NCBI RefSeq assembly: GCF_008831285.2
Contig: NC_045149.1
Location: 2,399,500-2,463,499 of the forward strand
Reading direction: 5' to 3'
Source: Nymphaea colorata
Lineage: Eukaryota > Streptophyta > Magnoliopsida > Nymphaeales > Nymphaeaceae
Length of the DNA stretch: 64,000 bases
Shown here: piece after piece, positions 18,101-59,208 of the stretch
How positions within the stretch are numbered: the stretch's first letter is position 1
How the letters are laid out: each line of letters begins with the position of its first letter
The notes under the pieces: generated by a model
What the model was told of the DNA's origin: nothing
Database searches by the model: none
Seen by the model: only the letters and a program-made list of their open reading frames with translations
Translations under genes and position numbers: made by a program

Positions 18101-20665
18101 TATATGTGCATGTAAGACATAAGCATACAGTGCAAAATATAAAATAACAAATCTGTAATATTTGTTCACTTGCTGGAATGAAAATGACTCTGATGAGTTA
18201 ACCCCCTCAGTTGAATCAGCTATAAACTTAAATGGCTTGGCAAAGACATGATTAGGTCATGTCTTACCAACTTCATGGTCATTTTTTCTTCTATAGGTAA
18301 ACGACTGCATCAGATGAGTCAACAGTGAAGATAGCTGAGTTCTAAAACATCTAGATTTTCATCACCCTAAAGGGAAATATCTTTTCCAAATTCAAGCTAG
18401 GGCCTTCACCAATTGACAAGCTCATCCATGCTCCATGACTAACAAATCCACCTCTAAGATTTCTTTTTCGAGACTAAAAAAAGCCACCTGAAATGAAAAC
18501 AAGCTGTTGTAATAGATGCATTCACAAATAACCATGTTAAATGTTTGTCACCTATAATACAACTGAGATAGCAGTGAACAGAAAAACAAAAGAATGTCAT
18601 CACAGTGTGCACATCACAAACTAACCTGAGTGCTGAAAATGACACTAACCTTCTATCATCTATTATAAACGCAGATGGGGAATCTATTTGAGTGCCAATT
18701 ATTTCCCAGCTCAAATTTAAGAAAACGAGACACTGTTGTTAACCACTAAACCAAGCTTCAAAATGTCTACCTCAAACGATAAAACATTGAAGGTAAGTGT
18801 GCAACGCCGAACAAACATGCCCAAGATGCTATTTGTGTCCAATGATATTTGTTCATCCTCCAAATTTGTTGTTTCATTGCTCCCAAAAACAACTGTAAAA
18901 TTAATACCAACAAACTTCAAATCCATAAAATTAATTTATCTACATAAAAATGCTAAATTTGCTGCTAGATTAAAAGAATAGCTAACCTTGCAACCCAGCA
19001 AAAAAGTTAAACAATTCATCAGCTGAAGATAATGATGAGAGACGTTCAGTTAATCGGTGTGCAATAAACATGTCAAGTTCTCCTGTAACTGCCTTGAGTT
19101 GCATAATAAGCCGTTCAAGTGATTGCTCCACAAAATCATCAGTGGCCTACAATTAAAAAGGAGACAATATTTATATTCAACCAGACAACACCCACACCAA
19201 TATCCAAGCCCAGGATTTATACATGCACCCATGCTACATAAGATGGAAGCTAGTGACAAATTCCTGTATGAGAACTACCTGTATTTGAACCCCTGGATGA
19301 ACTCGCATGATTCTACTGTTATGGAGATAGATAACAAGAATTTATGTGTATCCTGGGACGGGTTAAAATTTAGATTCGTAAAGCCACCTGCATTCAAACC
19401 CTTGAAGTAACTCCTGTGGTTCTACCATTATGGAGATGGATACCTTGAACGAGCCAAACATGCAGGGAATTTTTATGATTCCATGACCTTGATAAAATGT
19501 ATAGCAGCTGCATCTGGCTACTCAGAAAATATATCCAGCTAGGAGTTTGTAATTATACATCTGGAAAAGTCATGATTCAATAGTAACAAAACCTGAAGTG
19601 CTGTCAGCAAGAGACTTGATATTCATACTTGAACTCTTTAAAGTTTAAGGAGTCACTTTGTGTGAATCTCATGTTATAAACGTGTTGTGGTGGCTGCTAA
19701 AGAGACCTGAAGCAGTCATCCAGGTTGGTAGAAAGCTACACGTTTCGAGGTGTTTGAATAAGGATTAATTTCAGTTTGAAACCTCCCAAATTCATCATAT
19801 ATGCTACGTAACAGCCTAACAGGCGCATGCCAGTTCGGTGCTGTGCACAAAAATGATGATTTAACATGAGTGGTCTATTTTAAATATTTTTATTGCCTGG
19901 AGTTCGCTGTCCAGTGTTGATTTCTCTTTTCCTGTCTCTGGAATATCTACTTCATATAGAAACAGCTAACACAGGCCCACACCTTACTGACACTTTAGGA
20001 CACGGTGTGGACACGTGGCACACCTTGGACACAATTAAACCGTTGACGCACCGTATGTCAAGTTTCTTTCCAAATTTTGCGCTTGATCGACTTTGACCTA
20101 GTTCACTATTATCTTTTCTTTTGTCAAAACCTTTAAACCCTCTCGTACCATATCAATTTGATAAATAGCCCCGTCCTTTTCTTCTCTTCAAACCTTTTAT
20201 CGGTTAATATTTTTATCAAATTTTTTGAAATTACTCTCGACTGTTCCAGCACAACTGACTTCAACATCAAGCAGATACAAGTAGGGAAGGGCATAAAAGA
20301 TATGGTTCCACCGTAAGAACTAACACAGTTTACACCGATGAATAATTATGCAGAGGCATGAGTGCCACCAAAGTCCAGAACTCATATGCAAAGAACGTCA
20401 TTATACTATTTGTAATTGTCTTCCCATTTTGTTTGCTTGCATTAAACACCACGTGAGTGAGACTCCAGCTATTCATAGATACCCCTGTGAATAGACGAAC
20501 TCGGAGAATACCCACACCTAAAACAACCAAAAATTTGGATAGATAACAGGAAAGCAATCCAAATACGATGTAGCGGTTCGTTTAAGGACTTAATCTCCAA
20601 AATAATCAATCAAACGCCATATTTTGGGAGTGAATGTAGATTTTTAAGGAAAAGAGAGAGAGAGA

Positions 20666-20702
<37 letters not shown>

Positions 20703-20899
20703 ACAAGGCTAGGTTTCAAACGGATTACCTTGATCAGTGAAATCAAGAAGATTGCGAAGCAATTGTGCTGGGATACGGACGAGAAGGGGAATGGGACCGT
20801 GTCCGGCGACGGAGTGGCGTACAACTGGATGAGGGCGCAGACAGATATCTTGTGGGGGGTGAGAGTGAAGGATGTAGCAGGCCTCCAGATGGTATCCAT
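15097..20899 (-). CDS. APC5: Anaphase-promoting complex subunit 5 (N-terminal part, seven exons)
   Basis: Seven minus-strand exons (20899-20729, 19146-18987, 18892-18771, 17657-17387, 15629-15440, 15344-15284, 15182-15097) join in phase to 1061 nt, 353 codons, without a stop, all with GT...AG introns. The product matches plant APC5, a scaffold subunit of the APC/C ubiquitin ligase that drives cell-cycle protein destruction. Landmarks are FTLTPHKISVC and PFPFSSVSQHN in exon 1, SNLGMFVRRC-like SILGMFVRRC in exon 3, GACHLLTNIAAYC at the start of exon 4, LRTNWQVQGFL in exon 5 and LRHLNSLYHEDY...RRYFDY in exon 7, where the Apc5/TPR domain begins. Full-length relatives have about 900 residues, so more than half is absent. 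Exon 7 ends in phase 2 at a good donor, so either intron 7 exceeds 15 kb and runs off the left edge or the gene is truncated. Confidence 0.9.
15284..15344 (-). CDS. APC5: APC5 exon 6
   Basis: 61 nt between acceptor TTTTTCAG and donor CATCGT|GTATGT. Encodes HEFENMLKLLEKLAPELHR, matching the FESMLRQLQKLAPELHR block of the family, and keeps the frame of exons 5 and 7. Confidence 0.83.
15440..15629 (-). CDS. APC5: APC5 exon 5
   Basis: 190 nt from acceptor GTGGCAG to donor GAGAA|GTATGG. Encodes LEDKIEDRMLCQ and LRTNWQVQGFLKEKADLFEK. The preceding intron 4 (15630-17386) is 1.76 kb without coding content. Confidence 0.86.
15630..17386 (-). other. APC5 intron 4
   Basis: 1757 bp, AT-rich, GT...AG. 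Poly-A/T-rich segment 16190-16520 and small open frames of no recognised content. Confidence 0.75.
17387..17657 (-). CDS. APC5: APC5 exon 4
   Basis: 271 nt from acceptor ATGCAG|GGG to donor GAAG|GTATGA. Opens with GACHLLTNIAAYC, a strongly conserved APC5 block; the remainder (DPEKLRLANYVPDHDPHRLE) is a less conserved acidic linker. Confidence 0.88.
17658..18770 (-). other. APC5 intron 3
   Basis: 1113 bp between exons 3 and 4; no gene or element recognised. Confidence 0.75.
18771..18892 (-). CDS. APC5: APC5 exon 3
   Basis: 122 nt, acceptor TTTTACAG and donor GAG|GTAGAC. Encodes LEDEQISLDTNSILGMFVRR and NVLSFE. The intron before it (18893-18986) is only 94 bp. Confidence 0.88.
18987..19146 (-). 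CDS. APC5: APC5 exon 2
   Basis: 160 nt between acceptor TTGTAG|GCC and donor GCAAG|GTTAGC. It encodes the helical stretch DDFVEQSLERLI...LFNFFAGLQ, which lines up with the DDxxEPKLEEL...LLNFF segment of plant APC5. Confidence 0.85.
19147..20728 (-). other. APC5 intron 1
   Basis: 1582 bp. Contains a 58-bp imperfect direct repeat (about 19279 and 19387, CCTG...TATGGAGATRGATA), a (GA)n(GT)n(TA)n microsatellite at 20655-20702 and, from 19833 rightward, the part that is duplicated at 55220-56153. Confidence 0.75.
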
Positions 20900-21297
20900 T
20901 GTAGCTGATCAGGTCCAAGGTTAAGGGTATTGCGGCTCTAAATCGAAGCGAGGACGCGATTCGCTTCGTGGATTCCAACCCTAGGCCATTCGCGAGAGAG
21001 ACAGAGGGAGAGGGGGAAGGAGAGTCTCTGAGAAAGAGGAGGAAAGTGCCTGTGCGTGTTTCCCTCCCATTTTGAGGTTTTTGAAGAATAAATAATTCGG
21101 CCAAAATGAATCGGACTTTGTATCGCAGCGGATCGTCTACGCTGGCATTCGCCGCGTGAGCTGCAAAACCTCCCGAGGACCCCAGCTTCCAATCACTCTT
21201 CTGGTCGAGGGGATGTGCGGCAAGTGGTATTGGTTTTGATTCGCATTCGCTTCAAAAAACTTATTCGTGTTCAACTCATTTATAATAGAGTTGAAGT
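19833..21297 (-). repeat. Inverted segmental duplication, copy 1 (APC5 5' region)
   Basis: About 1.46 kb covering the APC5 upstream region, exon 1 and the first 0.9 kb of intron 1. The reverse complement recurs at 54661-56153 at roughly 96 percent identity by eye; exon 1 has one base change. The copies are head to head, 33 kb apart. Confidence 0.92.
20729..20899 (-). CDS. APC5: APC5 exon 1
   Basis: 57 codons from the ATG at 20899 to the donor CAAG|GTAATC. The start is the first ATG of the frame that matches the family N-terminus. The whole exon, its upstream region and 0.9 kb of intron 1 recur inverted at 54661-56153. Confidence 0.88.
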
Positions 21298-22539
21298 TTA
21301 CATTTGGGCAGATATTCCATACAATGTTAGAGCTCCAAAGTTGTTCCCAGGCTCAATATTCCGTTGTCTAAAGCTGTTGAAGTCAGCGGGAACAAGTAAA
21401 GGATTCCTAAGTTGTTACATGTACATTAGGTTTGTGTAACTTATATGCATGTATTATGCAGTAAGTTAACTAAACATTTGATTATATGTTAATAGGGTTC
21501 ATTTTTCAATATAACAAATCACTAGCATTAAAGAGATTCACTTTGATATCCATTTTCAACCAATTTGAGACACAAAGAGTATTCACCATTTGTGGCATAC
21601 AAACAGTTGTCCCATACAATTATAAATATAGGATGCTATCTAATTCATAGTTGTGCTTGAAAAGTCAAGCTCACTGCTGCCACTGGCTTGATTGCCACCA
21701 CTGCCCCAGGACAAGCCCCCTTTCTCTTCCAAGCTGCAGCATTGCTGTTGCATGGAGTATATATGCATATATGATTTGTTGTCTCTTTTCTCTTTCTTAT
21801 TATTTACTTTTTCTTTCTCTCTCACTTCTTTTCTATTTCTTTTTTTTCTCTTTTCTTTTCCTTGCTGCCGTATATAGTAACTAGCTGCTAACACTACAAA
21901 TATTGTAGCATTCTTTTTGTTTTTTTATATTTTTCTAATTCTCTCTATTCTTTCTCTTCCTTTCTTTTTACATTCTCTTTTCTCTTCTTTGGTTGCAATA
22001 CAATTATTGACCATGCAACTTTTGCAATCTTGCACATTATGACCGTTCATATGAGATAAATAGAAAATTATCAAAATATTTACTCACCTTCGTATTCTCA
22101 TTGCGGGAATCCACGAGGGATAGGACTCAACTCTTTTGTATGAGACTTGGACATTCCTGCCGCCTTTAACAGGGGTAATCAAATGAACGACTAAATTAGG
22201 TGTTTAAAGCCCCACCAAACCTAAATTAAAAAGGGGTCCTGAATTTTGAAATAGTAAGTTTTTAGAAATCTAAGTGGATCATCATACAATGTCGAGCATG
22301 AACTGTATCATCACAAACCCATGCAAGAGTTAAATCATAGGTCTAATAGCCTAGTGCTTGATGCGCACATGGAACTGCCACAAAAAACACCGTTTTTTAA
22401 AAAAAAATACCGTTTTTTTTTTAAAACGAGAATAAGACGCGTTCTTTTAAAAAAAAACGTTTAAAAATAAAAGACGCGTATAAAACACGTTTTATACGCA
22501 TCTTTCACGTTTTTTTAAAGATACACAGTCAGTTTTTTT
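21298..22539. other. No gene; AT-rich, pyrimidine-rich sequence
   Basis: A CTTT-rich run lies at 21770-21990. No coding frame or element end recognised. The segment 22100-22370 has a different composition and may be the edge of a decayed LTR element. Confidence 0.45.
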
Positions 22540-22790
22540 AAAAAAATGGCATGCGTGTAATATTTATAAAATAATTGGTTTTTTTTAACTTGGACGCTCC
22601 TTTTAGTGGCAAAAACGTCTTTTTAAAAGATGGCACGTAATATTTGTAAACGAAATGGTTTTTTTAAACTTGGATGCTCCTTTTAATGGCAAAAACGTCT
22701 TTTAAAATATGGCACGGTGTCATATTTGTAAATGAATTGGTTTTTTTTAATTTGGACGCACCTTTTAATTGCAAAAACGTCCTTCCCGTC
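22540..22790 (+). repeat. Three tandem repeats of about 80 bp
   Basis: The word TTGGAYGCWCCTTTTARTKGCAA recurs at 22590, 22670 and 22752 with TATTTRTAAA upstream each time, giving periods of 80 and 82 bp. Copies differ by several bases and small indels. Confidence 0.8.
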
Positions 22791-25700
22791 ATCCTCTCCT
22801 TCGTTTTCTTGTTCTCTTTTTATTTTCTCCTTTTCCCGCCTATTGCTGGAGTTCACGTTGCAGGGAAAGAGTTTATTAACTTTATTTATTTGAATTTTTA
22901 AGTTAACAAATTGTTTCAAGGTGTACCTAAAATTTGTTGTTTATCTAGTTATTTTTAGTTTTTTAAATTTTTCATTTATTTTATTTTTATATGATTGTTA
23001 GGATTTTTTATTTATTTTTTCAAAATTTATCATCTTTTTCTCGTTTTATTCTCGAGATTTTTTTCCTCGCCGTATTATACCCGTTTTTTTCCTCACCGTA
23101 TTATACCCGTTAACATCTTTTGTGACAGTACTCTAATATGAATGCATGCAAAACTAGAATCATTAAATAATCAAGATCTGATTTCTAAGTTTAGGACATA
23201 GACCTAAGAATATCTTGATTCAAAATTCAAATCCAAATGTTAACTAGGAATGATCCAAACATTCAATATTTGATGCAAATACAAGGTTTAGACTTAGGGT
23301 TATTCTAGTAGAGTTTTAGGTTCAAAACCTAACTCATGGTTGATCCAATTCAGAAATCATTCCTTAATCCAAATTCATGATCTAAATCCAAAATGAGGTA
23401 TCATGATCCAATTTCAAGGTTTAGATTCTAAAGTCCATAATAAGGATTTCAAATCTTGATCCAATTTGTCATGAGATTCAAATCCAAATGGTTGATATGG
23501 AATCCAAATCTAGAATCCAACTCTTATATGATTTGAGTTCAATAATCTGACTCTTTTGATCCAAGTTATATCCAAATCCAATCTCATACCTGAACTCGGA
23601 TTTGATATTTATTTCCAATTCATTTAGATCAAGATCCAATTCCTCCAAGAACCACACGTCCAGCCTTATTAGGCTTTGGGTCAAACTTGGCTAGGGTTTG
23701 AGTCTAACCTAACTAAGGTTTGGCTTTGGCCTAACTAGAGTATACATGCATCCCAACTAAGGTTCAAAGTTAGCTACATAATTGTAGACTAATATTTGAT
23801 CTTGGTTAAAATATTGAGAGAAGCCTATGGTTTTAAGTTGGTTTAATACTAAGGACCAGTTCTCAATTATGAATGAATCTATGTTTGAAATGGGATAGGT
23901 TGAAAAAGTGCAGTTGAAAAACTGTGATTATAAAATCTATATTTTTCATATAATCAACTTAAATCAAGTATACATATGAGATATTGTCGCAAATGTATAG
24001 TTGATGACCTTAACTTAATTAAAACTAAGCAAAACAGATATATATGAGTGAATGACATGATATTTCAAAACAATTATGAAATTTAGATTCAAACTAGGGC
24101 TTTCACTTCATAAATAAAGCTTAATAATAAAGGCATATTGCTACAAGTTCATTCAAAACCTTAAATTTATATACTGAAGTCCAAATGCAATATTTTTGAA
24201 ATAATGCACATTTAACGATGCATTAATACAACAATCAAATAAATACATCCTAAAACCCTAAAATGATGATTCACATGATTAGCTATGCCAATTTGGATTT
24301 TACCACCAAGAAAGTAAAAATATTTAAGTTAAAGTTCAAAAATTGGATGGAAAATCTCTAACTATGTGGGAAACAGAAATTTGTAACTCATAGAAAATTG
24401 CTATTAATTCTCTGCAACTAATTTGATGGATTCTAAAAGAAAGACAAATGGAATTCAATCTTCATGAAATTTTGAGTGAAAGATATCCCATATCAGATAA
24501 TCAGGTCCAAGTGATAAATCAGAAAAATCTATTTTCTAAAAGAATATTGATAAAGAAATCTGGTACGAAAAACAGTTTTTCTATAGAAAATAAAGTAGAA
24601 AATAGTTTTGCTGCTATAACTTTTGTACATTAAAACATACCTAAACAAGTTAGATTGATTTGAACAGTGGTCTGCACTTTGGTCTGTACTTTCTCAGCAT
24701 AACATAGAATTAAAACAACTTTGTAAATGTAAAAAATAATGAGAGATGAAAAAGTTATTGATATGCATAGGTGCTACAAAAATCACAATTTGCAGAGTCA
24801 GAATTTTGGCTTAAGTACTAGAAAATATCAAAACAGTTTAGCAATCCAATGATCATGAAACTTGGTATACTTACTCTTTGTATATCAAGATTCTAACTGC
24901 ATTTGATTTTTTTTTAAAGAACTTTTGATGACAAAAGATATAAGCTCAAAAACATGGGATATTAAACAGTTTTTTCAAAATTCACAAAACACACAAATAC
25001 TTCAAATCACAAAATTCAATTATGTTTTAAAGTAAGGTTAATAGATCCATCTTGATCTGATTTTTTTTTTGTATATTGTCTACATACTAGAGAAATCTAT
25101 AGGAACTAATATTTTCTGTAATGTATTGTTCATGCATCCGACTTTGTGATCCTATTTGAAATTGATGACAAAACTTCATTTTAACAAAAAAAATTGAAGA
25201 TGGACTCATGATATGACAGAAAAACTAAAAAACTTAAAAGAATCCAAAAAGATTCACTACGCAAAAATTAATGCATGTGCAAAGTTGAGCATAAATAATA
25301 TTTTCTGTAGAGTTCTGGAAAAAGTTATAGAAAATAGATCTGACCAAAACGTTCAATTATGGAGTCAAATCAACATAAAATCCTATAAAATTTTAGGAGA
25401 AGGAATTAGACACCTATGATGAACACTTGGCTCTTACAGAACTCAATTTAGACCTCTGGATTTAGAGAAATAAGTTGATTAGTCCACGAAAAATTTAAGA
25501 CTTAGTTATGTCAGAAATTTGACGTAGAAAAAACAATTTATAAAATTGACATGGTTGAAAGGCCAAATCTTAATGAAAACGGATGATAGTTTGTAGGCAC
25601 ACACTAGGCATATGCACAAAACCTTTTTTTTTTTTCACGGATTACAAAAATTATTTCTGCTTTGAGAGATATAGTTATTTAAAGTTACAAAAAAATCAGG

Positions 25701-28386
25701 CTTATGACAGCAAGTCTGATTTTCACCTAACTCAAAATTAAACATCTCCTAAACTAGATTTTATTGAAAAACCCCAAATGTGACAAAATTAGCACATGAA
25801 TCAATCAACTAAATAACATCTAAACACATAAATCATACTTAAACCCAGATTGAATCAAGCAATGCAAGTACATATGCATGGAATTCATGAACTATGTGCA
25901 TGTGTATGTGCATTGTGATCTATGTAGAAAGAGAAAAATCTGGAAGAAGGAAGGGATATGGAAGAGAGGGATGATGTCCACGTGGGATCCATAGAAGAAA
26001 ATAGAGAGAGAGAGAGAGAGAGAGAGAGAAGAAGAAGAAGAAGAAGAAGAGGGAAAGAAAGAGAGAGATTGTGCTTTTTCTTCTTCTCCTTCTTCTTTTC
26101 TTTATCCTTCTTCCTTTTTTCTTGCTGGTCCATTCTAGATCCTTTGGAAAGATCTTATAAAACGTTAGAAAAATGTATGAAGGAGTAGCTCTTATAAAGC
26201 ACTTGCCTTAGAAAAATATAGCAAAGAAGAGGAACAGGGGTAGCACGACACCCAGTTCCTATTTATAATGATTTTGGCTGATTTTCAGCCAATTATAACC
26301 AATTAAAATTTTAGAAAATGAAAACAAAGATTGACGAAGTGTCAAACAGGTCGACGGTTGATATTTGTTTAAAAATTTGTTCAAAGGCCCATATTTTATG
26401 AGATAATTTTTATTTTTTAGCTTAATAACAAGAAAACAGGAGTGAGGGTGGCACTCCTAGGGTTGGGTTTTGAAAAATATAAAAACCCTAGCCAGCCTAA
26501 GATGGATGGTAAGGATCGATATGGATCACTTCAAAGCCCTAGATTGAAGATATGATGTTTGATCTGGATTCATATCTGAATTTTAAGCATGGATTTGGAT
26601 TTTGGATTTAGATCGAGGTTTAGATATTGCTTTAGATCAAGAAAAATGATTTTGGATATTAGATACGAGATCTAGATCTGAAACAATGTAGATTATTGAT
26701 CTAGATTGCAGATTAGGAGATTAAATTCAGGATCAAAGAATCATGTGTAGGACCTAGGCTCAAATGGGATCAAGCTCAATGTTAGGAGGTTGACCTAGGC
26801 TTGTTCTAGGTTTGGGCTAGGTTGGACATAGGTCCAAACTGGGCTTTAGTCAATTGGGTTCATTTTTTGGTCAAATTGACCTGATTGACTGCATGTTGGA
26901 TCCAAGGTAGGTTTATGCTCTACTTGAGTCATACTGAGCTCAATCTTCATACATGAAATATCTAAATTAGGTTTATGTGGTTCCTAACTTACAAAAATGT
27001 GAAAATAATGCACATTTTGCTAAATGATGATTTTGCCTCTAGTGCAAAAGCCATGTTTTGCAAGTTATGTTGGGCATTTAAACCATCTAGGGTCATAGAC
27101 AATGTGAAAATCTTTGCTCACGTAAAATTTTATGGAAAATGACTTGACTTGCCCTTGAAAACTTCAAATTTTAAAAATTGACCAGCCTGTAAATTTAAAA
27201 TATGATGGACAAAATGGGAAAAAGTAATTTTGGCCTTGTTTGTGAGAAATAGATGCATTGATACCCTCTCCAAGTGATGTTAAATCCATCGTTGTGTTTG
27301 GATTGAAAATCAGAAACCCAAATTGACCAGAAATTAGCTCTAAAACCACAAGTGATGCTCCAAATGATCCAAGGCTTCTCTATTTGGATGAAAACTGATA
27401 ATACTCTATTGAGATGTTTCTGATCACATTGATGTGAAGAAATTAGCAATTCGAATTCCGGATTTTGATAATTTTAGGTCAGAAGCTTGAGCTGTCCCTA
27501 AGAGCCGTAGACATGAAGGAGAAACGAGTGGGAAAAAAAGAATGAACTAGATTCATAATGAATTAATCCAAATTGGGCTAAAGATAGTCATTTCTGACAC
27601 TAAAGAGCATATTACTAGCTCAACACGAACTAACTCCAAATTGAGAGAATTTCAGTTGAGAAACTCAAAATGGAGGAGAGAGAGTGACTTTGGTACCACG
27701 ACAACTTTCTAGATCTCTAATCAAGAAGAGTAAGCATAAAATGACTTTGAAAACGCTCTCCTAGCACTAAGAAAACTTTAATGTGAGCTCCACTGGTACT
27801 GTCAATAAGTCAATGTTGAGAATTATGTGAATCATTGATCTAGTGAGCACATTTCAACTGAAATAGAAGGAAATGAGAGGTTTATGATAGAAATTTTGCC
27901 CCAGAAATTGAGGATTTTGTTGAAAATAGTCTGCTAACACTGATAGAGGTTTGAACGTACAGTTTTTGAGATCCACACATGATCTAATGTGAAAAGATTG
28001 CTTAAAAAAGAGAAATGGGCCATTTTAGCAAAGTTCGACCAAATGTGAATTGAAAAATGGGTTAGGAAGCCCCTGGTGGTTTGCAAATGTGGAAATTTTT
28101 ATAATTGAAATGGTGGTAAATATTTCTTAGAGGTTCTAGAGCTTTTTTCTTGAAAATTGGATCAAATTTGGGAAAAATGAGGGCAATCAAGGGCAAAATG
28201 GTCATTTTTAACCAGCAGCGGGCTGCGAGATCTGGTTCCAACCGCCTAACATTTGAATGATGAAGTTCCTGCCTGTGTGATCCTTGGCCTATGCAATTGG
28301 AATATTTTGAAAAAATCAGCACAAAAAACCTCCATTGGGTAGGGTAAAATGGTCATTTTAATAAAGAAAATTTTGGGGTGTCTACA
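22791..28386 (+). mobile_element. Probable decayed LTR-retrotransposon sequence (large LTR or LARD-like)
   Basis: No coding sequence. The stretch carries long runs of ATCCAAAT/GGATTTGG-type words (23150-23680 and 26540-26760), a (GA)n(GAA)n tract 26003-26051, and a TATA-like CTATTTATAATG at about 26258. It ends at 28386 with GGGGTGTCTACA, which is a common end of plant gypsy LTRs. The start of the LTR and a second copy were not found, so the left limit is arbitrary and the class is an inference from the terminus and composition. Confidence 0.4.
26003..26051. repeat. (GA)n(GAA)n microsatellite
   Basis: Pure GA run passing into a GAA run. Confidence 0.9.
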
Positions 28387-29166: not shown

Positions 29167-29215
<49 letters not shown>

Positions 29216-43419: not shown

Positions 43420-46400
43420 ATCAAATTATCTTCTCTGGCGTTTTCAAATTGAAAGTATTATGAAAAGTCAAAATCTGATCACTATGTTAATAGGAAATGT
43501 TCTGTTCCACTTGAATTTCTTGATGAAGCACACACACAAGAAAATCCTGCTTATGATTTATGGTACTGTGAAGATCAATTTGCATTAAGTTGGGTCAAAG
43601 TCATGGCAACTCAACCGGTCATGTCACAACTAGATCGTGTTAGCATGGCTAGAGATGCTTGGTGCATTCTTGAAAAACAATATGCCTCACAAAACAATCT
43701 TCGCATTATTCAACTAAAAAGAGAACTACAAAATGTCAAAAAGGGAGGAATATCTTTGATTGATTACCTTCAACATATTAGTTTCTTACATGATTCTCTT
43801 AGCACTGTGCAGTATTTTGTCTTAGATATAGATCTTGTTTTCTATACTTTGAAGGGCTGAGTTCTGGATATGAAACTTTCATCACCACCACTACTACATT
43901 TAAAGATCTACCTTCATGGTATGAATTATATGATATGTTAATTACTCAAGAGCAGCGACTTGGAATGTTTTCCTCTCTCCAACTGACTTAGGTTGAAGCC
44001 ACAACCACTGCCTTTATTGCTAAACAAGGGCATTGGCATGCCTTTGTTGCTGACCAGGGGCATGGGTGTGGTAACTATATTGGCAGCAAGGGTAGAGGCC
44101 ATAATGGAGGAAGAGGAAATTATAATGGAGGGAGAAGAAACTATGGTAAAAATAATAGTACTAACAAGTTTAGCTAAGGAATAACTTGTCAATACTGTGG
44201 AAGAATGAATCACACTGCTCGATAGTGCTATAATATTCCAAAGGCATTAATGGCCATAGCACTTAACATGGGAAAGTCTGACACTACATCTAGTAGTCAT
44301 GAAACTATCAACAATACTCATGACTCATGTGACAAACTCAGATCACGAAATGCAAGGTAAAGTTACCTATCATGGATCTAATTCAATTATTGTTGGCAAT
44401 GGTAATAAGATGCTAATTAAAAATATAGGGAACGTATCCCTACCTAGCAAAATGTCTTTTGTTTTTAAAAATATGTTGCATGCTCTTAAGGCACACAAGA
44501 ATCTTATGTCAGTTGCAAGGTTTACCAAAGACAATCAATGCTCTATTGAATTTTCCTTTAATGGTTTTACTGTTAAGAATGTGCAGACGGGCAAGATTCT
44601 TCACACAGGGCTGCTTGAGAAAGGAGGACTCTATAAATGGATGAGAGAAAGAAAGGACTCAATAAGCAATACTATCAGAGATGAAGATGATGGTCAACTA
44701 AAGATTGCTAATACTTCTTTAGTTTCACAAAATTATTGCTCAAATTTTCAGCTATGGCATTTGGTCTAGGACATGCTCATTTTCAATTATTGAACTCGTT
44801 GAAAGTTGTTGGTTTAACATCTACTAACGACAAAGATAAATTGGATTTTTGTTTTTCATGTGTGCTTGGAAAAATGCATAAAATTGCTTTTTCTAAGACT
44901 GAGTTTCATGCAACTAAACCACTTGAAGTGTTACATGCTGATCTTTGGGGCCAACACCATGTGCTTCTCGAGAAGGGTACATATATCATTTCTTAATAGT
45001 TGACGACTATTCTCGCTTCTCATAGATTTTTCCCTCATCCAAAAAAAGTGATATGTTTCCATGTTTTAGAACCTTCTCTATCATATATGAACCTTTGGAT
45101 GTACCATCTATCCATTGAGTGGGCCTAGACGTGCTTCAAAATTAAAACCCAAAGCTCAAGTTTGCGTCTTTATCGGCTATGGAAGCTGTCATAAAGGTTA
45201 TGTCTATTATAATCCAATCTCCAATCTTGTTATCATATTTAGACACATTAGATTTGACGAAATAAGCTTTCTATACTCTCATTGTGGTCCCTCTATTACT
45301 CCTTCAAACATTTCAAGATGGCTTGAATCGTCCGTATTTGAGTGCATTGAACCTAGACCTATTGACAAGCCAAAAGAGAGTTTGCCCAGAATCATTTCTA
45401 GGCCCCCAAGTTCCTCAGTTGTTCGAACTGGTGCCAATCCCTCTGAGTCTCCCTCTAATGATAAACCTAACAACCAATTAGTTGAGCCACCCGATGGCCT
45501 AAAGTCTTCATCTACTTGACCCAAACCACTCCTGATACTGAACCTACCTCACTAAAAGAGGCCCAATAGGACCACAACTGGGTTAATGCTATGAAAAGTG
45601 AGATGGATGCTCTTGACAAAAATGAAACATGAGATCTTGTACCGAGAGAACCTCACTTTAATGTTATTGGATGTAGATAGGTCTACAAAATCAAGCGTCA
45701 TTTTGATGGTACTATAACAAGGTATAAGGTCAGATTAGTAGCCAAAGGATTTAATCAAAGAGAATGAGTGGATTACTTTGATACTTTCAGTCCGGTAGTC
45801 AAACCAACCACTGTTTGACTTGTTTTGTCTATTGCCTTCAGTCGTAGGTGGTGCACTCAACAAATTGACCTCAACAATGCCTTCCTTCACGGAATGTTGA
45901 AAGAAGAAGTTTTTATGATTCAACCACCAGGGTTTGAAAATTCAGAGTTGTCTAATCATGTTTGCAAACTCAAACTAGCTCCCTTGGTTTGACAGCTTGA
46001 AGTAGTTTCTTGTCAGTGAAGAATTTTAGGAATCACAGTCTGATTCGTCACTCTTTATTTGCAATTCTGGTTCCAGTACTATTTATTTATTGATCTGTGT
46101 CGATGACATTATTTTGACTGGCAGCGCCAAGATAGAAATACACAAATTTTCAGCAAAGCTTGGACAACACTTCTCCCTCAAAGATCTAGGACAAATCCAC
46201 TACTTCCTTGGAATTTAGGTATCCTTCAACAAAGATCATCTTGTTCTCTCACAAAAGAAATATATTCTTGATATACTTAGCAAAGTTGGGATAGAGAAAT
46301 GTAAAGATGTTTTTACACCTATTGTTCCCAACTTACCCCTCTCACAACATGAAGGGGAGAGATTCATGGACGTTACTCTTCATAGGAGCGTTGTTGGAGC

Positions 46401-47010
46401 CTTGCAGTATGTCACTTCACTGGACCTGATATTGCCTTTGTTGTTAATAAAGCATGTCAATTTATGCATGATCCTACTAATTTTCATTGGGGTCATGTCA
46501 AATGCATTCTTCGGTACCTACAAGGCACGAGCACGTATAGTCTTCAAATTTGAAGAAATCATTCTATCACATTGTAATCATATGCCGATGCCGATTGGGC
46601 TGGTTGCTCAGATGACCGACAATCAACCAGTGGATTTGTTACTTTGCTTGGAGAAAAGATTATTTCTTGGGGATCAACAAAACAACATACTATAGCACGT
46701 TCAAACACTGAAGCTGAATATAAAGCCCTTGCGATTGTCACTTCTGAAATTATTTGGTTGAAATCTCTTCTCAAGGAACTCAAGGTTGACATTACGAAAC
46801 CACCAATACTCAGATGTGATAATCTTGGAGCTACTTACCTTGTAGCCAATCTTGTTTTTCATGCAAGAACAAAACATATTGAAATCAATTTTCACTTTGT
46901 TAGATTGAAAGTCACCAAAAAGGAAATTCAAATTGAATTCATCACCTCTCAAGAATAGTTCGTTGATATCTTGACCAAAGTGTTGGCTGGACCACGGTTT
47001 CATTGTCTAA
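43420..47010 (+). pseudogene. copia C gag-pol remnant
   Basis: Gag with LKRELQNVKKGGISLIDYL (43603-43860). A Gly-rich segment and knuckle QYCGRMNHTA near 44190-44220 in a broken frame. Protease/GAG-pre-integrase 44299-44769 with the catalytic DSGA motif lost. Integrase zinc part 44736-44996 (CFSCVLGKMHK, LEVLHADLWG) then IVDDYSR at about 45000. Most of the integrase core is deleted; the C-terminal GYGSCHKGYVYY region is at 45115-45519. RT 45540-46370 is full of stops (RLVAKGFNQRE*VDYFDTFSPV, QIDLNNAFLHGMLKEEVFM). RNase H 46644-46958 has [11 protein letters not shown] and [12 protein letters not shown]. No product possible. Confidence 0.88.
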
Positions 47011-47056
47011 GGAGCAAGCTTAATCTTGTTGACACCAAGATCGACTTGAGGGGGAA

Positions 47057-47383
47057 TGATAAGATAATCTACGATAATCAAGGAGAGGATAAGATCTACG
47101 GTTACGCCAACCCAACGTCATCCAAAACTGAACAATCTCCTCATGATACAGAAAGAACCATTTCTAAAACAGTCACATGTAATCTTGCCAAAGTCTATCG
47201 TGTGAATCTAGATCCTAAAATCAAGGATCTCAATTGTACACAGTAACTATAAAAACTTGTACTCTCTTGGTTGAATAATTGAAGAATAGAAAAGAGTGTC
47301 TTTCCTGTGGACATAGGCTGAGTTTAGCCTAACCACATTACATCTATGTTCTTCTCTTAAGTTCATGTTCACTTCTATTAACT
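47057..47383 (+). repeat. 3' LTR of copia C
   Basis: 327 bp, six bases shorter than its partner in the CTTTTTC run near the end; followed by ATTCA and the rest of the LTR of B. Confidence 0.92.
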
Positions 47384-47388
47384 ATTCA

Positions 47389-47488
47389 CACACTGAAAAT
47401 AGGGTTACAAAGGCTTAAATAGAGCTCAACATGAAAAACGGATCGAATAGAGTCCAGACTCGAACCCGAACATACAAACAAGCCAACA
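47389..47488 (-). repeat. 5' LTR of copia B, right portion
   Basis: Continues the LTR interrupted at 42134 (CACACTGAAAATAGGGTTA...) and ends GCCAACA. Confidence 0.88.
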
Positions 47489-47712
47489 GTTTCTTTCAAG
47501 GGTTTGTTTCTTTGTTTAAATCTTTCCAATAATAAAATTTCTACAACATTCTATATGCAAATACAATTTCCATCTGTTTGGTAGATCATCATTTTTTTTG
47601 TGTTTTTCTTCCATGTGTGCTGGCACTATTTTCTGGTAGATCATCTAATTTTTTTATGTGCTTGAATATCAGTTATCGGTTATAGTTTTTTGGTTTTCAG
47701 ACATACATTGTA

Positions 47713-49985
47713 ATGGTTGATAAAGGAAAAAGAATGATGTCATCAAGTGGAAGTGGAAACATGGCAAGCAGCATTAGTAGTGTTAATACCACTACTGTAG
47801 TAGAAATTGATTCATCTCAACCTCTTTGGTGCTATGTGAATAAACTAGGAAAACCTAGTGGTGGCGGTGGGAATATAATTTTTACTTGCAATTTCTGTCA
47901 TAATCATTTTGTTGGCTCTTATAGATGTTGCAAGGCACATTTATTGCATATCAAAGGCCATAGAATTAGACCATCCGAAGAAAGTAGCAAAGAATTGATG
48001 AAGGTATTGAAAAAAAAACAAGATGTAGCTAAGACGAAAAAATCTTCAGCCAAGTCAAGTGAACTATTTGTTCCTCTTTATGCTATTGAAGAAGGTAAAG
48101 ATGCTTCAAAGAAAAGAAAAATAAACATAGCGACTGGACCTACCAAAACATCAGCACAAACATTCAAAATATGGGAAGCGTAGAGATGGATAGAAGAATT
48201 GGAAGGTTTTTTTTTGCAAGTTCACTTCCTTTTAATGTAACCAAAAGTCATTGGAAAGATGTTGTTACAGGTTTCGCTAATAGCAGTTTGGTTGGTTATG
48301 TACCCCCTGAGTTCAGAGAAGATGAGAACAGTAATTCTTGTAGAAGAGAAAGTAAACATCGAAAAATTATTAGAGAAGAAGAAATTTTCATGGACATAAT
48401 ATGAAGTATCCATTGGTTTTTGACGAGAAATTTTATTGCTTATTCGCTTAATGGACCAATCTTTTTGAAATGTGTTGATGCATCTGGGGAGTATAAAGAT
48501 GATGAGTATTTCAAAGGGCTATTTATAGAAGTCATCAAAGAAGTGGGTGAAGACAATGTTGTGCAAATTATTAATGATAATGTTCTAGTTTGCCAATGAG
48601 CAGGGATGAATTTGGCAAGTGATCCCAAGTGTAGTCACATATTATGGAGACGTTGTGTGGCACACAATATAAATCTAGCACTTAAAAGTGTTTGCAACAC
48701 ATCAAAAGAAGGTACAAACACTATTAAATTGTATTTATGGATTGAGGAGCTTGAGCATGATGTCAGAAACATCAGAAATTTTTGTTGTAAACCACCACAA
48801 TGCTCTTGCTATATTTAATAAGCATTCTGTTTTGAAATTATTGAAGGTAGCAGAGGCTATTTTTGCATCCATTATTGTAATGATGAAAAGAATAAAGCAT
48901 GTGAAACATGCTTTAACACTTACAGTGACTGTCAATGATTTGGGAGTTTTATCGGAGTGATGACATTGTGAAGGCTTAAGAAATTAAAAAATGTATTTTA
49001 GATGATGAATGGTGGGATAAGATTACATTTTTTCTGCAATTTACAGAGCATATTTGGCATATGCTTAGAGAAGTTGATAAAGAAGGGCCCATGCTTCGTA
49101 GAGTTTATGATATGAGGGATAACATGATTGAAAAAAAATTCAAAACATCATTTTTAGATATGAGAAGAAGAATGTTGCACTTGATAATTCTGAGTTTTTT
49201 TATCATGTGCATAAAATTTTAGTAAGAAGATGGATTGGAAGCAATAACCCTTTGCATTATATTGCACACTCTTTAAATCCCAAATATTATGGACAAACAT
49301 TGTTGGCAAAAGGTACTGGTCGTATTCCTTCTAATCGAGATCCAGAAATATCAAATAATAGGGAGATATTGGGAAGTCTATTTTCTGATTTTCATCTATT
49401 GAAGATCATAAATAATGAGTTTGCGAGCTTCTCTGGTGGAAGAAGTGATTCATTATAAGCTGCAATGGCAAGAGATGAAGAAGGTCCTATTAATTGGTGG
49501 TTATGTTTTGGAGCATCGACATCAAATCTCCAACAACTTGCGTTGATGTTATTATCTCAACCCACAAGCTCTTCATGTTGTGAAAGAAACTGGAGCACTT
49601 ATTCTCAACTTCACAACATCAAGAGAAACAGGCTAACTAGTAAGCGAGCAAAAGATTTAGTTTATGTCCACTTCAACTTATGCTTACTTTCACGTACTTC
49701 AGAAGATTACAGGTATTTCTTTCTCTTTTTTTTAATCTTTGATATGTATACATATATATATTATGTTGGTTGTTTAAAGTTAATATTAACTTAAAGTTAA
49801 ATCATATTGTGATTTTGTTGCAACTTGCGGTTCAGGATCATCCAAGTATTGAGATGTTAATCCAAAGGACATTGACGTGAAACTTGAAGGAGAACATGAT
49901 TTGCATGCTCTTAATATGGACCTTGCAAAACCTTTTGTTCCTTCTAATGTTGATGATGCAACTGAGGAGAATCAAGAAAACTGAT
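47713..49985 (+). pseudogene. hAT-superfamily transposase remnant
   Basis: The N-terminal frame 47713-48183 opens MVDKGKRMMSS and carries a BED-type zinc finger (CNFC at residues 59-62, His pair near 76-83). The transposase continues in other frames: GRFFFASSLPFNVTKSHW and GYVPPEFRED (48192-48330, DUF659-like start), DASGEYKDDEYF (about 48478), ILWRRCVAHNINLALK (48640-48690), and the C-terminal hAT dimerisation region 49480-49700 (INWWLCFGAS, LALMLLSQPTSSSCCERNWS, KRNRLTSKRAKDLVYVHFN). Stops at 48182, 48598, 49456 and several frame changes make it non-functional. It encodes a cut-and-paste transposase of a DNA transposon; an upstream polypyrimidine/CAG just before 47701 suggests a 5'-UTR intron. 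Confidence 0.87.
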
Positions 49986-50146
49986 ATATTTTGTATGTTA
50001 ATTACTTCCATACTTTGTTTAGTAGTATGATAATATATATAAATTTTTTATCATGATTTATTATTATGTTTGTAATTTATATATATGTGTGTGTGTGTGT
50101 GTCTGTGTATGACTGTACCCCCACACCCAAGTTTTTTGAAAATGGT

Positions 50147-50189
50147 CTGTACCCGTACCGGCACCCATACCCGTACCGGCGTGACATAG
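50147..50189 (-). repeat. Possible right terminal repeat of the hAT element
   Basis: CTGTACCCGTACCGGCACCC...ACATAG, 160 bp after the transposase stop. Its reverse complement is similar to 32888-32938. GTACCCGTACCGG-type ends are known from plant hAT elements. Confidence 0.45.
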
Positions 50190-50279
50190 ATTAAGAATAA
50201 AACCTAATGTAATCCAGCTTATATTTGGATTAACATCATTAACAAAGTCTTAGACACTTTTGCCATGATAAGACACTAA

Positions 50280-52715
50280 GAGGTTGTTTGATAGCAGCGA
50301 AACACGTGAAAACTGAACACATGCATTTGTTGTCCACGGAATGATGCAGATAAAGCGTGGACAACAAGACAAGAGTATAATTTTTTTTTGTCTAGTGCTG
50401 TTCTGTGGGTAGGCATGGAACTCATAGGACAAAATGTAGCTCGAGCAATTTGCCCTCTCCCCCTTTCTCTTCTATGTCTCTGTCTTCATCTCCTTCTTCT
50501 TCTACCCTCTTCCCACCCACCCCCACCCAAAACCACCCCACCCTCTCTCTTGCACTCGCCTTCCCTTTCACTCTTCCACTGCTTTACCTTCCTTGCCCTT
50601 ATGTGTTCTAGTGACCTGTCCAGCGGCATAGACCAGCATTCTGACAACTTATTCCATGCTACCAACCGACATTTTGGCAATCTATTCCCTGCTATGGACA
50701 ATTTATTTTCTAGGTAACATTCTAACTCAGACCAGCTTCATTTCTTCCATTTTGCGTGCTCTAGTTTGGGGTTTATCTTCAGAAAGACATCGATTAAGTT
50801 TTTCACAGATTAGATAGGAACTAACATCTGCATAAAATTAATGGATTTTAGTTTTTTTATTTCTTTTGCATTGTTCAAGGATTTAGGTTTAGTTGCAGAA
50901 AAAATGTTTGATGAAATTTCTTGTAGTTGGCAGTAAGCATTGAATGGTCATGCTTTTCATAGAGCATTTGTCCCCATTCAGACCATCGGTCTATTGTTTT
51001 CTTATTAAAAAGTTTCAAAATTATGCTAGTGTTGTTTATCACCAAGATAACAATGGATGAATGGATCCATTTGTTATATCCTTAATCCTCATTCTTATTA
51101 TGTTTTCCTGGTACTATGGGAGGCAGAAAAAAAGGAACCATGGAAAAGACCATCAGATACTTTCGTAAGCTTTTTTCTCAGCCAAATATGTATAGGGTTC
51201 CAGGTTTTTTTGCTTTTTCTACTTTTCTTTCTTCGTTTGTTTTTCTTACTAGTGCATGAGTGCAACGAGTCTATGACATACGACATCCTATCAGTTTTAC
51301 CTTATGCATTAAAAGTTGAGGGGAGTGAGGAATCTTGTGTTTTTGAATGTTTTTTTTTTTTGTAATTTAAAGTGCAATTGGAGCGCTCAAGAGAAAAAGG
51401 AAAGCATTGGTGAAATCATTTCTCAAAAAAACAACTTTTAGTGCCTAGTGGTTGTATTATGGAGGGGCTAGATGGCAAGTATGTTGGGCCATGTTGCACC
51501 ATAGTATATAGCATACTGATGCCTGATATATGTATCCAACACAATAGTGAAGACACGATCAAATGTGATATAAAGTTCTGAATATGCTTAGTTATTTATT
51601 TTTAAAGCTATCTGGGACTATTTTGTAGACCCATATGAGATTTTGCCACCAACATTGATGCATCTAAATATTAAACTCGACCTTTTCAACTTGAGGGTCT
51701 CAATAGTAGTATTGTAGCAAGGGGAAATGAGTTGCTGACATATGTGATTGTACTAACATGGACAAATTTAATTATTATTCACTTGACCTTCTTCAACTTC
51801 AAACTCTTTACTTCAATATTGTGAATCAAGTTCTTGCTAATTGGCTTCTTTAATTCAATTTTTCTAAGAAAACCCTTGTTCAATAATTTTAATAAATGAT
51901 GTAGTTGACAGTTTAAGATTACACATGCAACAGAAATAGAAATCCTTTGAAACTTGGAGCTGGTTGTGCGTACTATATACCTGTTTGTGTGTGAAACTCT
52001 TAGCTCCCTCTAACTGTAGTTTATTGTAACTTCTAAATTTTTTGCCTTTCAAGATTTACAATTATTGAGAACTACAAAATCTACTATGTAATTATTTCAT
52101 CAGGAGATTAAGATTTTCAAAGATTAATTCCCCATAGAAAAATAATAAACTTAATGATTTAGAAGGCTGAATTGATGTCAAAAGGCAAGGTCCAATGTAT
52201 ACATGATTTAGAATGTCTATGTTTATGAGTGAAATGTCTAAAATTGTGTGAAATGGATCATTCTGATTTTTTAAGAGATCTAAATTCTCCACATTGGAGT
52301 GTTGCTACATATTTGCATTAATTTAATGGTATTTAAATTTTTGAGATACTAAAATGGGACGTGACTATTTTAGTAGATGGAGTTTTGGTAACTCCTACTT
52401 GTACAAATTAGTTGTCAATATAAATAAACAAATAAATAAATAAATGCATGTGTATACAGTGAAATAGAAATCAGACCAGCAAAAGATACAAACATTGGAC
52501 AAAACATATAGAACAAACAAGACATGAAACAAACACTTGACAAAATAAACAGGTTGGACAAATGTCTTACATGAAACAAACACTAGACAAAACAAACACT
52601 GTGCTCTGTTCCTAAATTCATCAAACAATAAACAAAGAAATGTCTTGTCTGCTATGCTGAGGTAGACAAGACGTCCTGTCTGTCATGTCCAAATGAATAG
52701 TAATCAAATGGCCTC
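50280..52715. mobile_element. PIF/Harbinger-like non-autonomous element, 2.4 kb
   Basis: Flanked by TAA on both sides (50277-50279 and 52716-52718). Ends are GAGGTTGTTTGATAGC and, reverse-complemented, GAGGCCATTTGATTAC: 12 of 16 matching bases. A 3-bp TWA duplication with GRGGCC..TTTGAT ends is typical of the PIF/Harbinger superfamily. Subterminal regions on both sides are rich in GACAAGAC/GTCTTGTC and ACAAACA words. No transposase or Myb-like ORF is present; the proline/leucine-rich frames at 50388-50717 are pyrimidine-repeat artefacts. Confidence 0.7.
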
Positions 52716-52718
52716 TAA

Positions 52719-53743
52719 AGGTTGGTTGATATTTTGTATTAGCAATCAGTTAACACACACACACACACACACACACATTATAGGGTGGCTAGTTTTGTGT
52801 TTGGGCAGATTTATATAGCTATTTTTTTGCTTTCTAACACATTATGCAGTTGAACACCTTGTGCAATTTACAACCCGCTCGATAAATAAGTAGAGTGATA
52901 GTAAGGCAATCAAGAGCTAGCCATGTTGGAGATTAAAAGATTTGTTAAAGATTAAAGACCTTTAGCATCTTCAAAAGGATACCACCTTTAGATTTAGGAT
53001 TTTTATTTATTTTTATTTGTTTTCATCAAGTGTGAAGATTTTGTTTAAAGAGTTTATCCAACAGAGTTGGACATTTTGTAGAACTTTAGTTTCTTATAGT
53101 AAAAGTATTTCTTTTAGTATAACTATTCTTGTTATATCTTGATTCCACTTGAATACACTTTGTATTGGTTATATACACTAGTATCAAAGCAATTATCCCT
53201 GGAGTTTGACCTACACTCATTGTTGGTGAAATCTAAAAAGTATAACTGGCGTGTGGCTTCGCAAAGAGTATTGTTTTGAAATATTTGATATTGATAGAAA
53301 ACAAAAAATATTTAGATCTAAAACCACACTAGTCATGCAAGAGGAATTTCCTTAGGATTAATTGGACAAGGAGGAGGGCAGATGTAGAACATTGTAACTT
53401 GATATTGGTATTATTCATTCCCCAAAGCGCTCCCTCACAGCCAATGCCATCTATTTAAATTTTCAAGTCATCATTATTTGTGGGCATTAGAATAGTGAGA
53501 AGATGGCAAACGGAAGGCATTTCTAACTTCCTAGCGGGATTTCTTTTTCTTTATTTTGAAGATCTATGTTTGCACAAAAACAAAAAAGTGCCACATTTGC
53601 TGCATCTCTCAGTCATTCATGCCACTACATTCCTTAACTTTCCACAATCAACATGTGGGAAATCTGCTGCTGGCCTCATGGGTTGGACTCTTGAAGTAGA
53701 ATGTCTAGCCTACCATTTAGAGAGAGAGGGAGAGAGAGAGAGG

Positions 53744-53778
<35 letters not shown>

Positions 53779-54660
53779 GTCAACATTACTCAAAGCCAAC
53801 AATACAACTAAGAGTTGATAGAAATTAATCTAATTTACGCCAAAGGAGGGGGCAACTCTCACCATTCGGCAATAAAATCGTGATTTTTCAAGTTGCAATA
53901 CGCAAAATAAGAAATATGATTGGAAACGACAATGAGAGTTGTCTATCCACTTTGATAGAGGATGGACCTGCAATAGGAAATATGAGAAATATGATTGGAA
54001 ATGGTAGTGAGATTTGTCCATGCACTTCGATTGAACATGGAGTTTCACACATTCCAAATGACCCACAAAAATACAACTAGCTTCCGTACAACCAGAGAAT
54101 CTTCTAATCATTTATCACATAGAGATTGAAAGATGCTTCAGCTATTTTTATTATCATTCAGGATTAACAGAGTAAACCCACCACTGATGAGAGTTGACTG
54201 TGCCCTGTCTCTTCCCTTTACTCATGTTTCCAAGGTCCAAGACGGTATTGGGGCGGGCCTTATTGTGGAGACAACTTTGGTACAATACGGCTCGAGAGTA
54301 TGCCACCCACAAAAATCAAACTTTAAGATGTGTGGGCTACAAACGTGCAATATAGTCTATGCCCCTTGAGGCACTGAAGGCTCGTCTAACGGCAACCGTG
54401 AGTGCAACCAGTCCATCACTATGGCTGCACACGAGCGGAGTTGAACTCGAGCTTGAGCTCCTTACAACAAAATTGAGCTCAACTCAACTACACAAAATTG
54501 AGCTCAAACATATAATTTGCGGAAATTTGTTTTTACCATAAAATTTTAAACCGGTGATTCAATGAACCAGTTTTGGTAAAATTATATGGAGTACTGGTTT
54601 ACGAGTCGAGTTCCTGAAACTCAAATTTGACTCGTTTATCATTTGAGTATCTTTATAAGC
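52719..54660. other. No gene; microsatellites and an internal repeat
   Basis: (CA)n at 52754-52779, (GA)n at 53720-53776. A 75-bp imperfect direct repeat lies at about 53908-53970 and 53984-54045 (GAAATATGATTGGAAA...). The part 54430-54660 has GAGCTTGAGCTC/GAGCTCAAC words and is probably the body of a small DNA element in which the APC5 duplication begins. Confidence 0.55.
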
Positions 54661-55048
54661 TTGAACTCTATTATAAATGAGTTGAACACGAATAAGTTTT
54701 TTCAAGCGAATTCGAATCAAAACCAATACCACTTGCCGCATATCCCCTCGACCAGAAGAATGATTGGAAGCTAGGGAGGTTTTGCAGCTGACGCGGCGAA
54801 TGCCAGCGTAGACGATCCGCTGCGATACAAAGTCCGATTCATTTTGGCCAAATCATTTATTCTTCAAAAACCTCAGAATGGGAGGGAAACACGCACATGC
54901 ACTTTCCCTCTCTTTCTCAGAGACTCTCCTTCCCCCTCTCCCTCTGTCTCTCTCGCAAATGGCATAGGGTTGGAATCCACGAAGCGAATCGCGTCCTCGC
55001 TTGGATTTAGAGCCGCAATACCCTTAACCTTGGACCTGATCAGCTACA

Positions 55049-55219
55049 ATGGATACCATCTGGAGGCCTGCTACATCCTTCACTCTCACCCCCCACAAGA
55101 TATCTGTCTGCGCCCTCATCGAGTTGTACGCCACTCCGTCGCCGGACACGGTCCCATTCCCCTTCTCGTCCGTATCCCAGCACAATTGCTTCGCAATCTT
55201 CTTGATTTCACTGATCAAG
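55049..55219 (+). pseudogene. APC5: Orphan copy of APC5 exon 1
   Basis: 57 codons identical to exon 1 except one Gln to Glu change (CALIELY here, CALIQLY in copy 1). The donor CAAG|GTAATC is kept, but no acceptor or APC5 exon 2 follows before the copia fragment at 56154. It can only yield a short or chimeric transcript, so it is scored a pseudogene. The 5' flank is also copied, so a promoter may be active. Transcription from it would run rightward, antisense to the copia fragment and to the PPR gene. Confidence 0.88.
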
Positions 55220-55242
55220 GTAATCCTTTTGAAACCTAGCCT

Positions 55243-55247
<5 letters not shown>

Positions 55248-55312
<65 letters not shown>
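55248..55312. repeat. (TA)n microsatellite in duplicated intron
   Basis: About 64 bp of pure TA, followed by TCTCTCTC; the homologous site in copy 1 is 20655-20702. Confidence 0.92.
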
Positions 55313-55314
<2 letters not shown>

Positions 55315-56153
55315 TCTCTCTTTTCCTTAAAAATCTACATTCACTCCCAAAATATGGCGTTTGATTGATTATTTTGGAGATTAAGTCCTTAAACGAACCG
55401 CTACATCGTATTTGGATTGCTTTCCTGTTATCTATCCAAATTTTTGGTTGTTTTAGGTGTGGGTATTCTCCGAGTTCGTCTATTCACAGGGGTATCTATG
55501 AATAGCTGGAGTCTCACTCACGTGGTGTTTAATGCAAACAAACAAAATGGGAAGACAATTACAAATAGTATAATGACGTTCTTTGCATATGAGTTCTGGA
55601 CTTTGGTGGCACTCATGCCTCTGCATAATTATTCATCGGTGTAAACTGTGTTAGTTCTTACGGTGGAACCATATCTTTTATGCCCTTCCCTACTTGTATC
55701 TGCTTGATGTTGAAGTCAGTTGTGCTGGAACAGTCGAGAGTAATTTCAAAAAATTTGATAAAAATATTAACCGATAAAAGGTTTGAAGAGAAGAAAAGGA
55801 CGGGGCTATTTATCAAATTGATATGGTACGAGAGGGTTTAAAGGTTTTGACAAAAGAAAAGATAATAGTGAACTAGGTCAAAGTCGATCAAGCGCAAAAT
55901 TTGGAAAGAAATTTGACATACGGTGCGTCAACGGTTTAATTGTGTCCAAGGTGTGCCACGTGTCCACACCGTGTCCTAAAGTGTCAGTAAGGTGTGGGCC
56001 TGTTTTAGCTGTTTCTATACGAAGTAGATATTCCAGAGACAGGAAAAGAGAAATCAACACTAACACTGGACAGCGAACTCCAAGCAATAAAAATATTTAA
56101 AATAGACCACTCATGTTGGTAATAAATCATCATTTTTGTGCACAGCACCGAAC

Positions 56154-59162: not shown

Positions 59163-59208
59163 GATCAAAATCAACAAGGTAATTCCACTTACAAGTCACT
59201 TTCAATGT

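Follow-up and report, generated by a model that had tools for sequence, protein, structure and literature searches.

The window analysed here is a 64,000-bp stretch of the Nymphaea colorata genome (contig NC_045149.1, abbreviated C12; C12:2399500-2463499), and it holds the 5' end of APC5, a large minus-strand gene, together with a second, partial copy of that 5' end inverted 33 kb away. Self-BLAST of the window placed the pair at 19833-21300 (minus strand) and 54656-56153 (plus strand) in head-to-head orientation, in two matching parts: 19833-20702 against 56153-55274 (97.3% over 882, inverted) and 20675-21300 against 55273-54656 (95.5% over 626, inverted). This confirmed a preliminary description of the same DNA, which had reported a head-to-head inverted repeat of the APC5 promoter and first exon, although the refined borders are longer on the promoter side by 3 bases in copy 1 and by 5 bases in copy 2. 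As that description had also stated, upstream DNA, the whole 57-codon first coding exon and part of intron 1 (0.9 kb) are common to both copies. The features of the pair and of the gene are these:

19833-21300, minus strand: copy 1, the APC5 5' end, with 401 bp upstream of the ATG, exon 1 and the first 0.9 kb of intron 1 (alignment; exons go on at lower coordinates)
20729-20899, minus strand: coding part of APC5 exon 1 in copy 1, 57 codons, with the ATG at 20899 and a GT donor at 20728 (read from the sequence; open reading frame)
54656-56153, plus strand: copy 2, an inverted partial copy of the APC5 5' end (self-BLAST, alignment, genome search)
55049-55219, plus strand: coding part of exon 1 in copy 2, with the ATG at 55049, one difference from copy 1 (Q to E) and the GT donor kept (alignment, open reading frame)
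21301-54655, no strand: spacer of 33,355 bp between the copies, with copia and hAT remains; it would be the inverted segment under the model preferred below (self-BLAST, open reading frames, Pfam)
15093-15335, minus strand: open reading frame with a downstream APC5 exon and the start of the ANAPC5 domain (Pfam PF12862, 23.5 bits; sole match in the genome search)

Beyond exon 1, APC5 exons were found near 19146, 18900, 17660, 15600 and 15300. The open reading frame at 15335-15093 scored narrowly above the cut-off of 23 bits for ANAPC5; the first exons joined as a single query scored 21.4, and the next exon, 16 kb further on across nested copia elements, gave a continuation of ANAPC5 at 19 bits, both of these under the cut-off. 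The joined exons also matched five distinct PDB sequences, weakly (E 0.003 to 0.011), all five of which are named APC5, and a search of the genome for the ANAPC5 family returned one match, the gene in the window. Because of these matches the gene is, as far as sequence similarity can identify it, APC5, as previously proposed, and apparently single-copy, although a diverged second copy could elude the 91-position model. Two pieces to the left of the window, at distances of about 2.5 and 27.5 kb, which look by eye like APC5 exons, matched no Pfam family, and a phmmer search of a single APC5 exon gave no match; a scan of IMG/VR with exon 1 gave one weak match (L044, 35% identity). No stop codons were seen in the APC5 exons that were read, which are those located so far and not the full set; the ANAPC5 match in the genome search counts two stops, and that match extends past the exon. 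An APC5 intron additionally contains a direct duplication of 267 bp at 97% identity (13832-14098 and 14105-14371).

Alignment of the two copies, a check that the preliminary description had called for, gave 1460 columns with 33 substitutions and 4 indels. Nine of the 33 substitutions fall inside a TA/CA microsatellite, which is longer in copy 2 than in copy 1, and with this microsatellite masked, 24 of 1396 columns differ (98.3% identity), with 3 small indels. The earlier figure of about 96% identity therefore stands when the microsatellite is counted and is too low outside it. Chance would not be expected to produce anything near a 1.4-kb match of such identity. No third copy of the fragment was found in the 407.8-Mb assembly (783 contigs) by a search that scored 2 candidates and skips very common words. 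Copy 2 has an intact start and GT donor, continues for 0.9 kb into intron 1 and then ends, with no further APC5 exon between its end and the copia piece that follows; copy 2 is an orphan 5' end, and it is copy 1 that heads the APC5 gene. No function is proposed for copy 2. A retrocopy was ruled out, since copy 2 retains both intron and upstream DNA. A simple assembly duplicate appears unlikely, as the copies differ at the 24 sites and 3 indels outside the microsatellite and their flanks differ; the window, moreover, contains no N, and of all the explanations considered here an assembly artefact is the one to which we give the least credence. The 5' flank includes a two-codon upstream reading frame (ATG GCN TAG, by eye; 20989-20981 and 54959-54967), which is preserved in both copies although its second codon changed, and the spacer includes remains of a hAT transposase (Dimer_Tnp_hAT, 49459-49794).

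The flanks of the two copies differ in an informative way on the promoter side, where a dispersed repeat resembling a miniature inverted-repeat transposable element (MITE) crosses the border of the duplicated block:

54421-54726, plus strand: MITE-like dispersed repeat, unbroken across the left border of copy 2; its last 71 bp are left in copy 1, at 21230-21300 (alignment to family members; ends by eye)

This repeat is about 300 bp long, with terminal inverted repeats recognised by eye and a left end at about 54421. The border of copy 2 at 54656 falls within the repeat, with no interruption there, whereas in copy 1 the repeat is broken off at 21300, exactly at the border of the duplicated block; its final right-hand bases are absent from both copies. 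The copies differ at four sites in the repeat, and at each of these the base most common among ten family members (shared by 10, 8, 9 and 10 of the 10) is found in copy 2 and not in copy 1. Alignment is less certain for two of the four, which are no more than 8 bp from the border, and for one of them different copy 1 bases are placed by two alignments. Copy 1 is native on the gene side, because the APC5 exons continue from it, and the unbroken repeat suggests that copy 2 is native on the promoter side and retains the original upstream DNA. The earlier view that copy 2 had merely been added is incomplete, since the repeat points to copy 2 as the keeper of the old upstream DNA. We considered whether copy 2 might instead have inserted by chance into a different member of the repeat family, and set this aside as less likely: by eye, both copies share changes absent from other members, and the left and right parts of the repeat are about equally distant from the ten members (77-84% and 69-80%). 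Which copy kept which flank can thus be read from a repeat lying across the border of a duplication.

On its other side, copy 2 runs into unrelated DNA, first a piece of a Ty1/copia element and then a pentatricopeptide repeat (PPR) gene:

56151-59196, minus strand: internal Ty1/copia fragment, gag to mid reverse transcriptase, with both long terminal repeats (LTRs) missing; AAC at 56151-56153 is shared with the end of copy 2 (Pfam, alignments)
59197-59219, no strand: 23 bp at the copia/PPR junction covered by neither alignment; contains the PPR stop codon (alignments)
59209-61347, minus strand: reading frame of the PPR gene, 712 amino acids, C-terminal tail lost at the junction; a tailed paralogue lies on contig C1 (open reading frame, Pfam, alignment)

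Copy 2 ends at 56153 and the copia DNA starts at 56151, which leaves the three-base overlap. The family of this copia fragment is abundant, with 1202 candidates, of which 40 were scored; in one related locus, L042, the part matching it (4003-7019) is flanked by LTRs at 2390-2856 and 7304-7758, and L041 shows the same arrangement. With up to 3 mismatches allowed, an 18-bp piece at the copia/PPR junction matched nowhere else in the window. The PPR gene in the window is 97.0% identical to its C1 paralogue over the coding part (64 of 2127 positions differ), and only the C1 copy has the C-terminal tail.

The copia DNA adjoining copy 2 would suit an APC5 fragment captured and moved by a mobile element (a Helitron, Pack-MULE or LTR element), and gene fragments are indeed known as cargo of plant transposons (PMC3445842). 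We nevertheless regard such capture as very unlikely: the copia piece is without LTRs, the left border passes through the MITE-like repeat without a break, only two copies of the fragment were found, and at six candidate borders there was no target-site duplication above 5 bp (five lacked a direct repeat of at least 5 bp and one had a 5-bp repeat), Helitron ends not having been searched for. Helitron hallmarks are TC and CTRR ends with a hairpin. Capture by a Pack-MULE or LTR element was rejected, the combination of terminal repeats with a target-site duplication not being found.

We interpret the APC5 pair as a scar of double-strand-break repair, most economically a 33-kb inversion that duplicated one of its breakpoints, and we would put the chance of this at about even. 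A double-strand break at the APC5 promoter would have led to inversion of a segment of about 33 kb (21301-54655), with the 1.46-kb APC5 5' end at one breakpoint being copied to both ends of the segment, through staggered breaks or equivalent repair copying. Copy 1 would have remained on the gene, and copy 2 would have remained on the original upstream DNA and moved with it to the far end, where it would have been joined to a captured internal copia fragment and then to the PPR gene, which lost its 3' end. Of its old upstream DNA, the APC5 gene of today would thus retain no more than 401 bp, and the distal region that once lay upstream of it would now be next to the orphan exon 1, which faces the 3' end of the PPR gene. 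The argument for an inversion with a duplicated breakpoint is that the two copies look native on opposite sides, since a plain inserted copy would leave the donor native on both sides; as in staggered-break inversions, the same sequence is found inverted at both ends of the segment. Break repair is suggested by the AAC overlap, the LTR-less copia piece, the 23 unassigned bp and the lost PPR tail. The duplication, the junctions on the right, the absence from the PPR gene of its paralogue's tail and the half-cut repeat in copy 1 are seen directly; we infer that there was a single event and that it was an inversion. If so, the locus suggests that a cell-cycle gene present in a single copy can be retained even when a small rearrangement has removed its distal upstream DNA.

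Several observations weigh against an inversion, and most of them concern the right-hand break. An inversion should leave the halves of its second breakpoint one at each end of the segment, and this was not seen, the expected partner not being found at 21301 onward. The missing copia parts gave no match at 21301-22500, and in a 103.5-kb stretch at this locus they gave 9 weak matches (67-91%), which are other repeats; the PPR tail and 1.5 kb beyond it are absent from the same 103.5-kb stretch, simple repeats apart. DNA that lies downstream of the PPR gene matched C1 only (598 bp, in two places) and nothing on C12. The segment 21407-21648 had a single match, of 72%, on C1, and is uninformative. 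With the partner of the right-hand break missing, an inversion must add a deletion at that break. Divergence of the APC5 pair is also uneven, with 17 of 384 columns differing in the 5' flank and 7 of 1012 elsewhere (Fisher P 1e-5); the exon bin used here, 20735-20908, is off the true exon by six to nine bases, which leaves the differences unchanged and alters the column totals by a few. An inversion consequently needs gene conversion or error-prone repair as well, and gene conversion over the exon and intron, or error-prone synthesis near the copy 1 break, could explain the unevenness. Because the second-breakpoint partner was not found, we do not file the locus as a staggered-break inversion but describe it only as working like one.

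So either DNA was lost at the right-hand break, or there was an insertion plus a separate loss upstream of copy 1. In the second case, a longer APC5 5' piece, comprising the repeat, promoter, exon 1 and part of intron 1, would have been inserted as filler, with the copia fragment, beside the PPR gene, and a separate, later deletion or rearrangement would have taken away the repeat's left part on the upstream side of copy 1. Such a duplicative insertion has to be taken seriously as a rival, since the partner that an inversion predicts is missing. The DNA to the right of copy 2 is also patched together from unrelated pieces, like the gene-bearing filler DNA of plant break repair (PMC3445842, PMC2686159). 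It requires that the second event happened to end exactly at the border of the copy 1 block, and the left end of the inserted piece was not located; we consider it possible, with a likelihood somewhat short of even.

Both readings have relatives among known rearrangements. In Drosophila, inversions through staggered breaks produce inverted duplications, and one such case involves a single breakpoint: the duplications of the D. subobscura inversion O8 correspond to one breakpoint of the uninverted order (PMC5080602). Repair alone can also produce such inverted duplications (models in PMC7584159). The APC5 pair resembles the D. subobscura inversions O4 and O8 in its inverted duplication, which can likewise be that of one breakpoint, and differs from them in its 33-kb size, in being from a plant and in that neither the uninverted state nor the partner at the second breakpoint was found. 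Filler DNA from synthesis-dependent repair in plants, in wheat (PMC3445842) and at maize p2/p1 (PMC2686159), likewise links gene and transposon pieces of unrelated origin at a break, the joints having little or no homology, whereas the APC5 piece lies inverted near its source and looks native on its outer side. Duplicated-breakpoint inversions are known from Drosophila (PMC5080602), and we make no claim that plant cases are unpublished. Inverted partial duplications such as the APC5 pair are, then, a known kind of rearrangement; for this one, break repair, perhaps with an inversion, is the best explanation, and a regulatory reading of it is unsupported.

That regulatory reading had been raised in the preliminary description, by analogy with the PAI genes of Arabidopsis: transcripts of both arms would pair and be diced, and would direct methylation to APC5. 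In its favour, the arms are 1.4 kb long, 98% identical and contain promoter and exon, and yet they are divergent and 33 kb apart, unlike those of PAI1-PAI4, which lie tail-to-tail and are both read from an outside promoter (PMC3203196). By that account, PAI1-PAI4 is likewise an inverted duplication of an endogenous gene, but the APC5 copies are partial, head-to-head and 33 kb from each other. Transcription would run outward from each copy, so that no transcript from their own promoters would cross both arms, and a fold-back RNA would have to cross the 33,355-bp spacer. Two lesser points are that 54990-55280 of copy 2, taken alone, folds unremarkably (z -1.06), and that no Rfam family reached its gathering score in 14000-63000. 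The analogy is thus not supported, and silencing by the pair seems highly improbable. In a weaker variant, the 3'-truncated PPR gene aims through the copia fragment at copy 2, and read-through could give RNA antisense to the APC5 5' end; such read-through across 3 kb of copia DNA may be the only antisense-capable geometry seen here. That the inversion took the distal APC5 promoter to the orphan exon, and that antisense RNA from PPR read-through now acts on the APC5 promoter, making an accidental trans-regulator out of one break repair, is a speculation with a very slim chance of being right.

The PPR gene has a duplication history of its own, which can be compared in age with that of the APC5 pair. 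In noncoding DNA the APC5 copies differ at 23 of 1222 positions, with the 5' flank contributing 17 of 384 and the intron 6 of 838, and the PPR copies differ at 62 of 807 (Fisher P 4e-10 against the whole, 0.035 against the 5' flank alone), and because of this higher divergence the PPR duplication is probably older than the APC5 duplication. In its coding part, the PPR pair has a synonymous divergence of 0.055 and a nonsynonymous divergence of 0.026 (NG86). The PPR duplication covers 59209-62192 and C1:29765248-29768232 (L056, L057) and includes upstream DNA that looks by eye like a long interspersed nuclear element (LINE); the C1 match stops inside this LINE-like part. A piece of the PPR downstream DNA (88%) and two short LINE-like pieces are found again at C1:29758922-29759337 and C1:29772974-29773044, about 9 kb upstream and 5 kb downstream of the C1 PPR gene. 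The C1 locus looks as if it had been tandemly duplicated or permuted.

Inverted pairs of this sort are not rare here, since others occur in the same 103.5-kb stretch (0.8 to 1.9 kb, 95-99%), and these look like mobile elements. One joins 1-1031 of the window to C12:2394412-2395442 (L007), with arms of 1,045 bp that are 98.9% identical and about 4 kb apart; it apparently falls within the APC5 gene, and two candidate exons stand between its arms. This pair may be a mobile element inserted twice, as four longer matches elsewhere (78-86%) suggest. It would be a better hairpin candidate than the pair reported above, because one transcript would hold both arms. Another inverted pair, with pieces of 1.9 and 1.1 kb at 97-98%, lies about 22.4-25.5 and 14.1-17.5 kb left of the window (L009 and L008), near DNA that appears by eye to be hAT-like coding sequence and within the presumed span of APC5.

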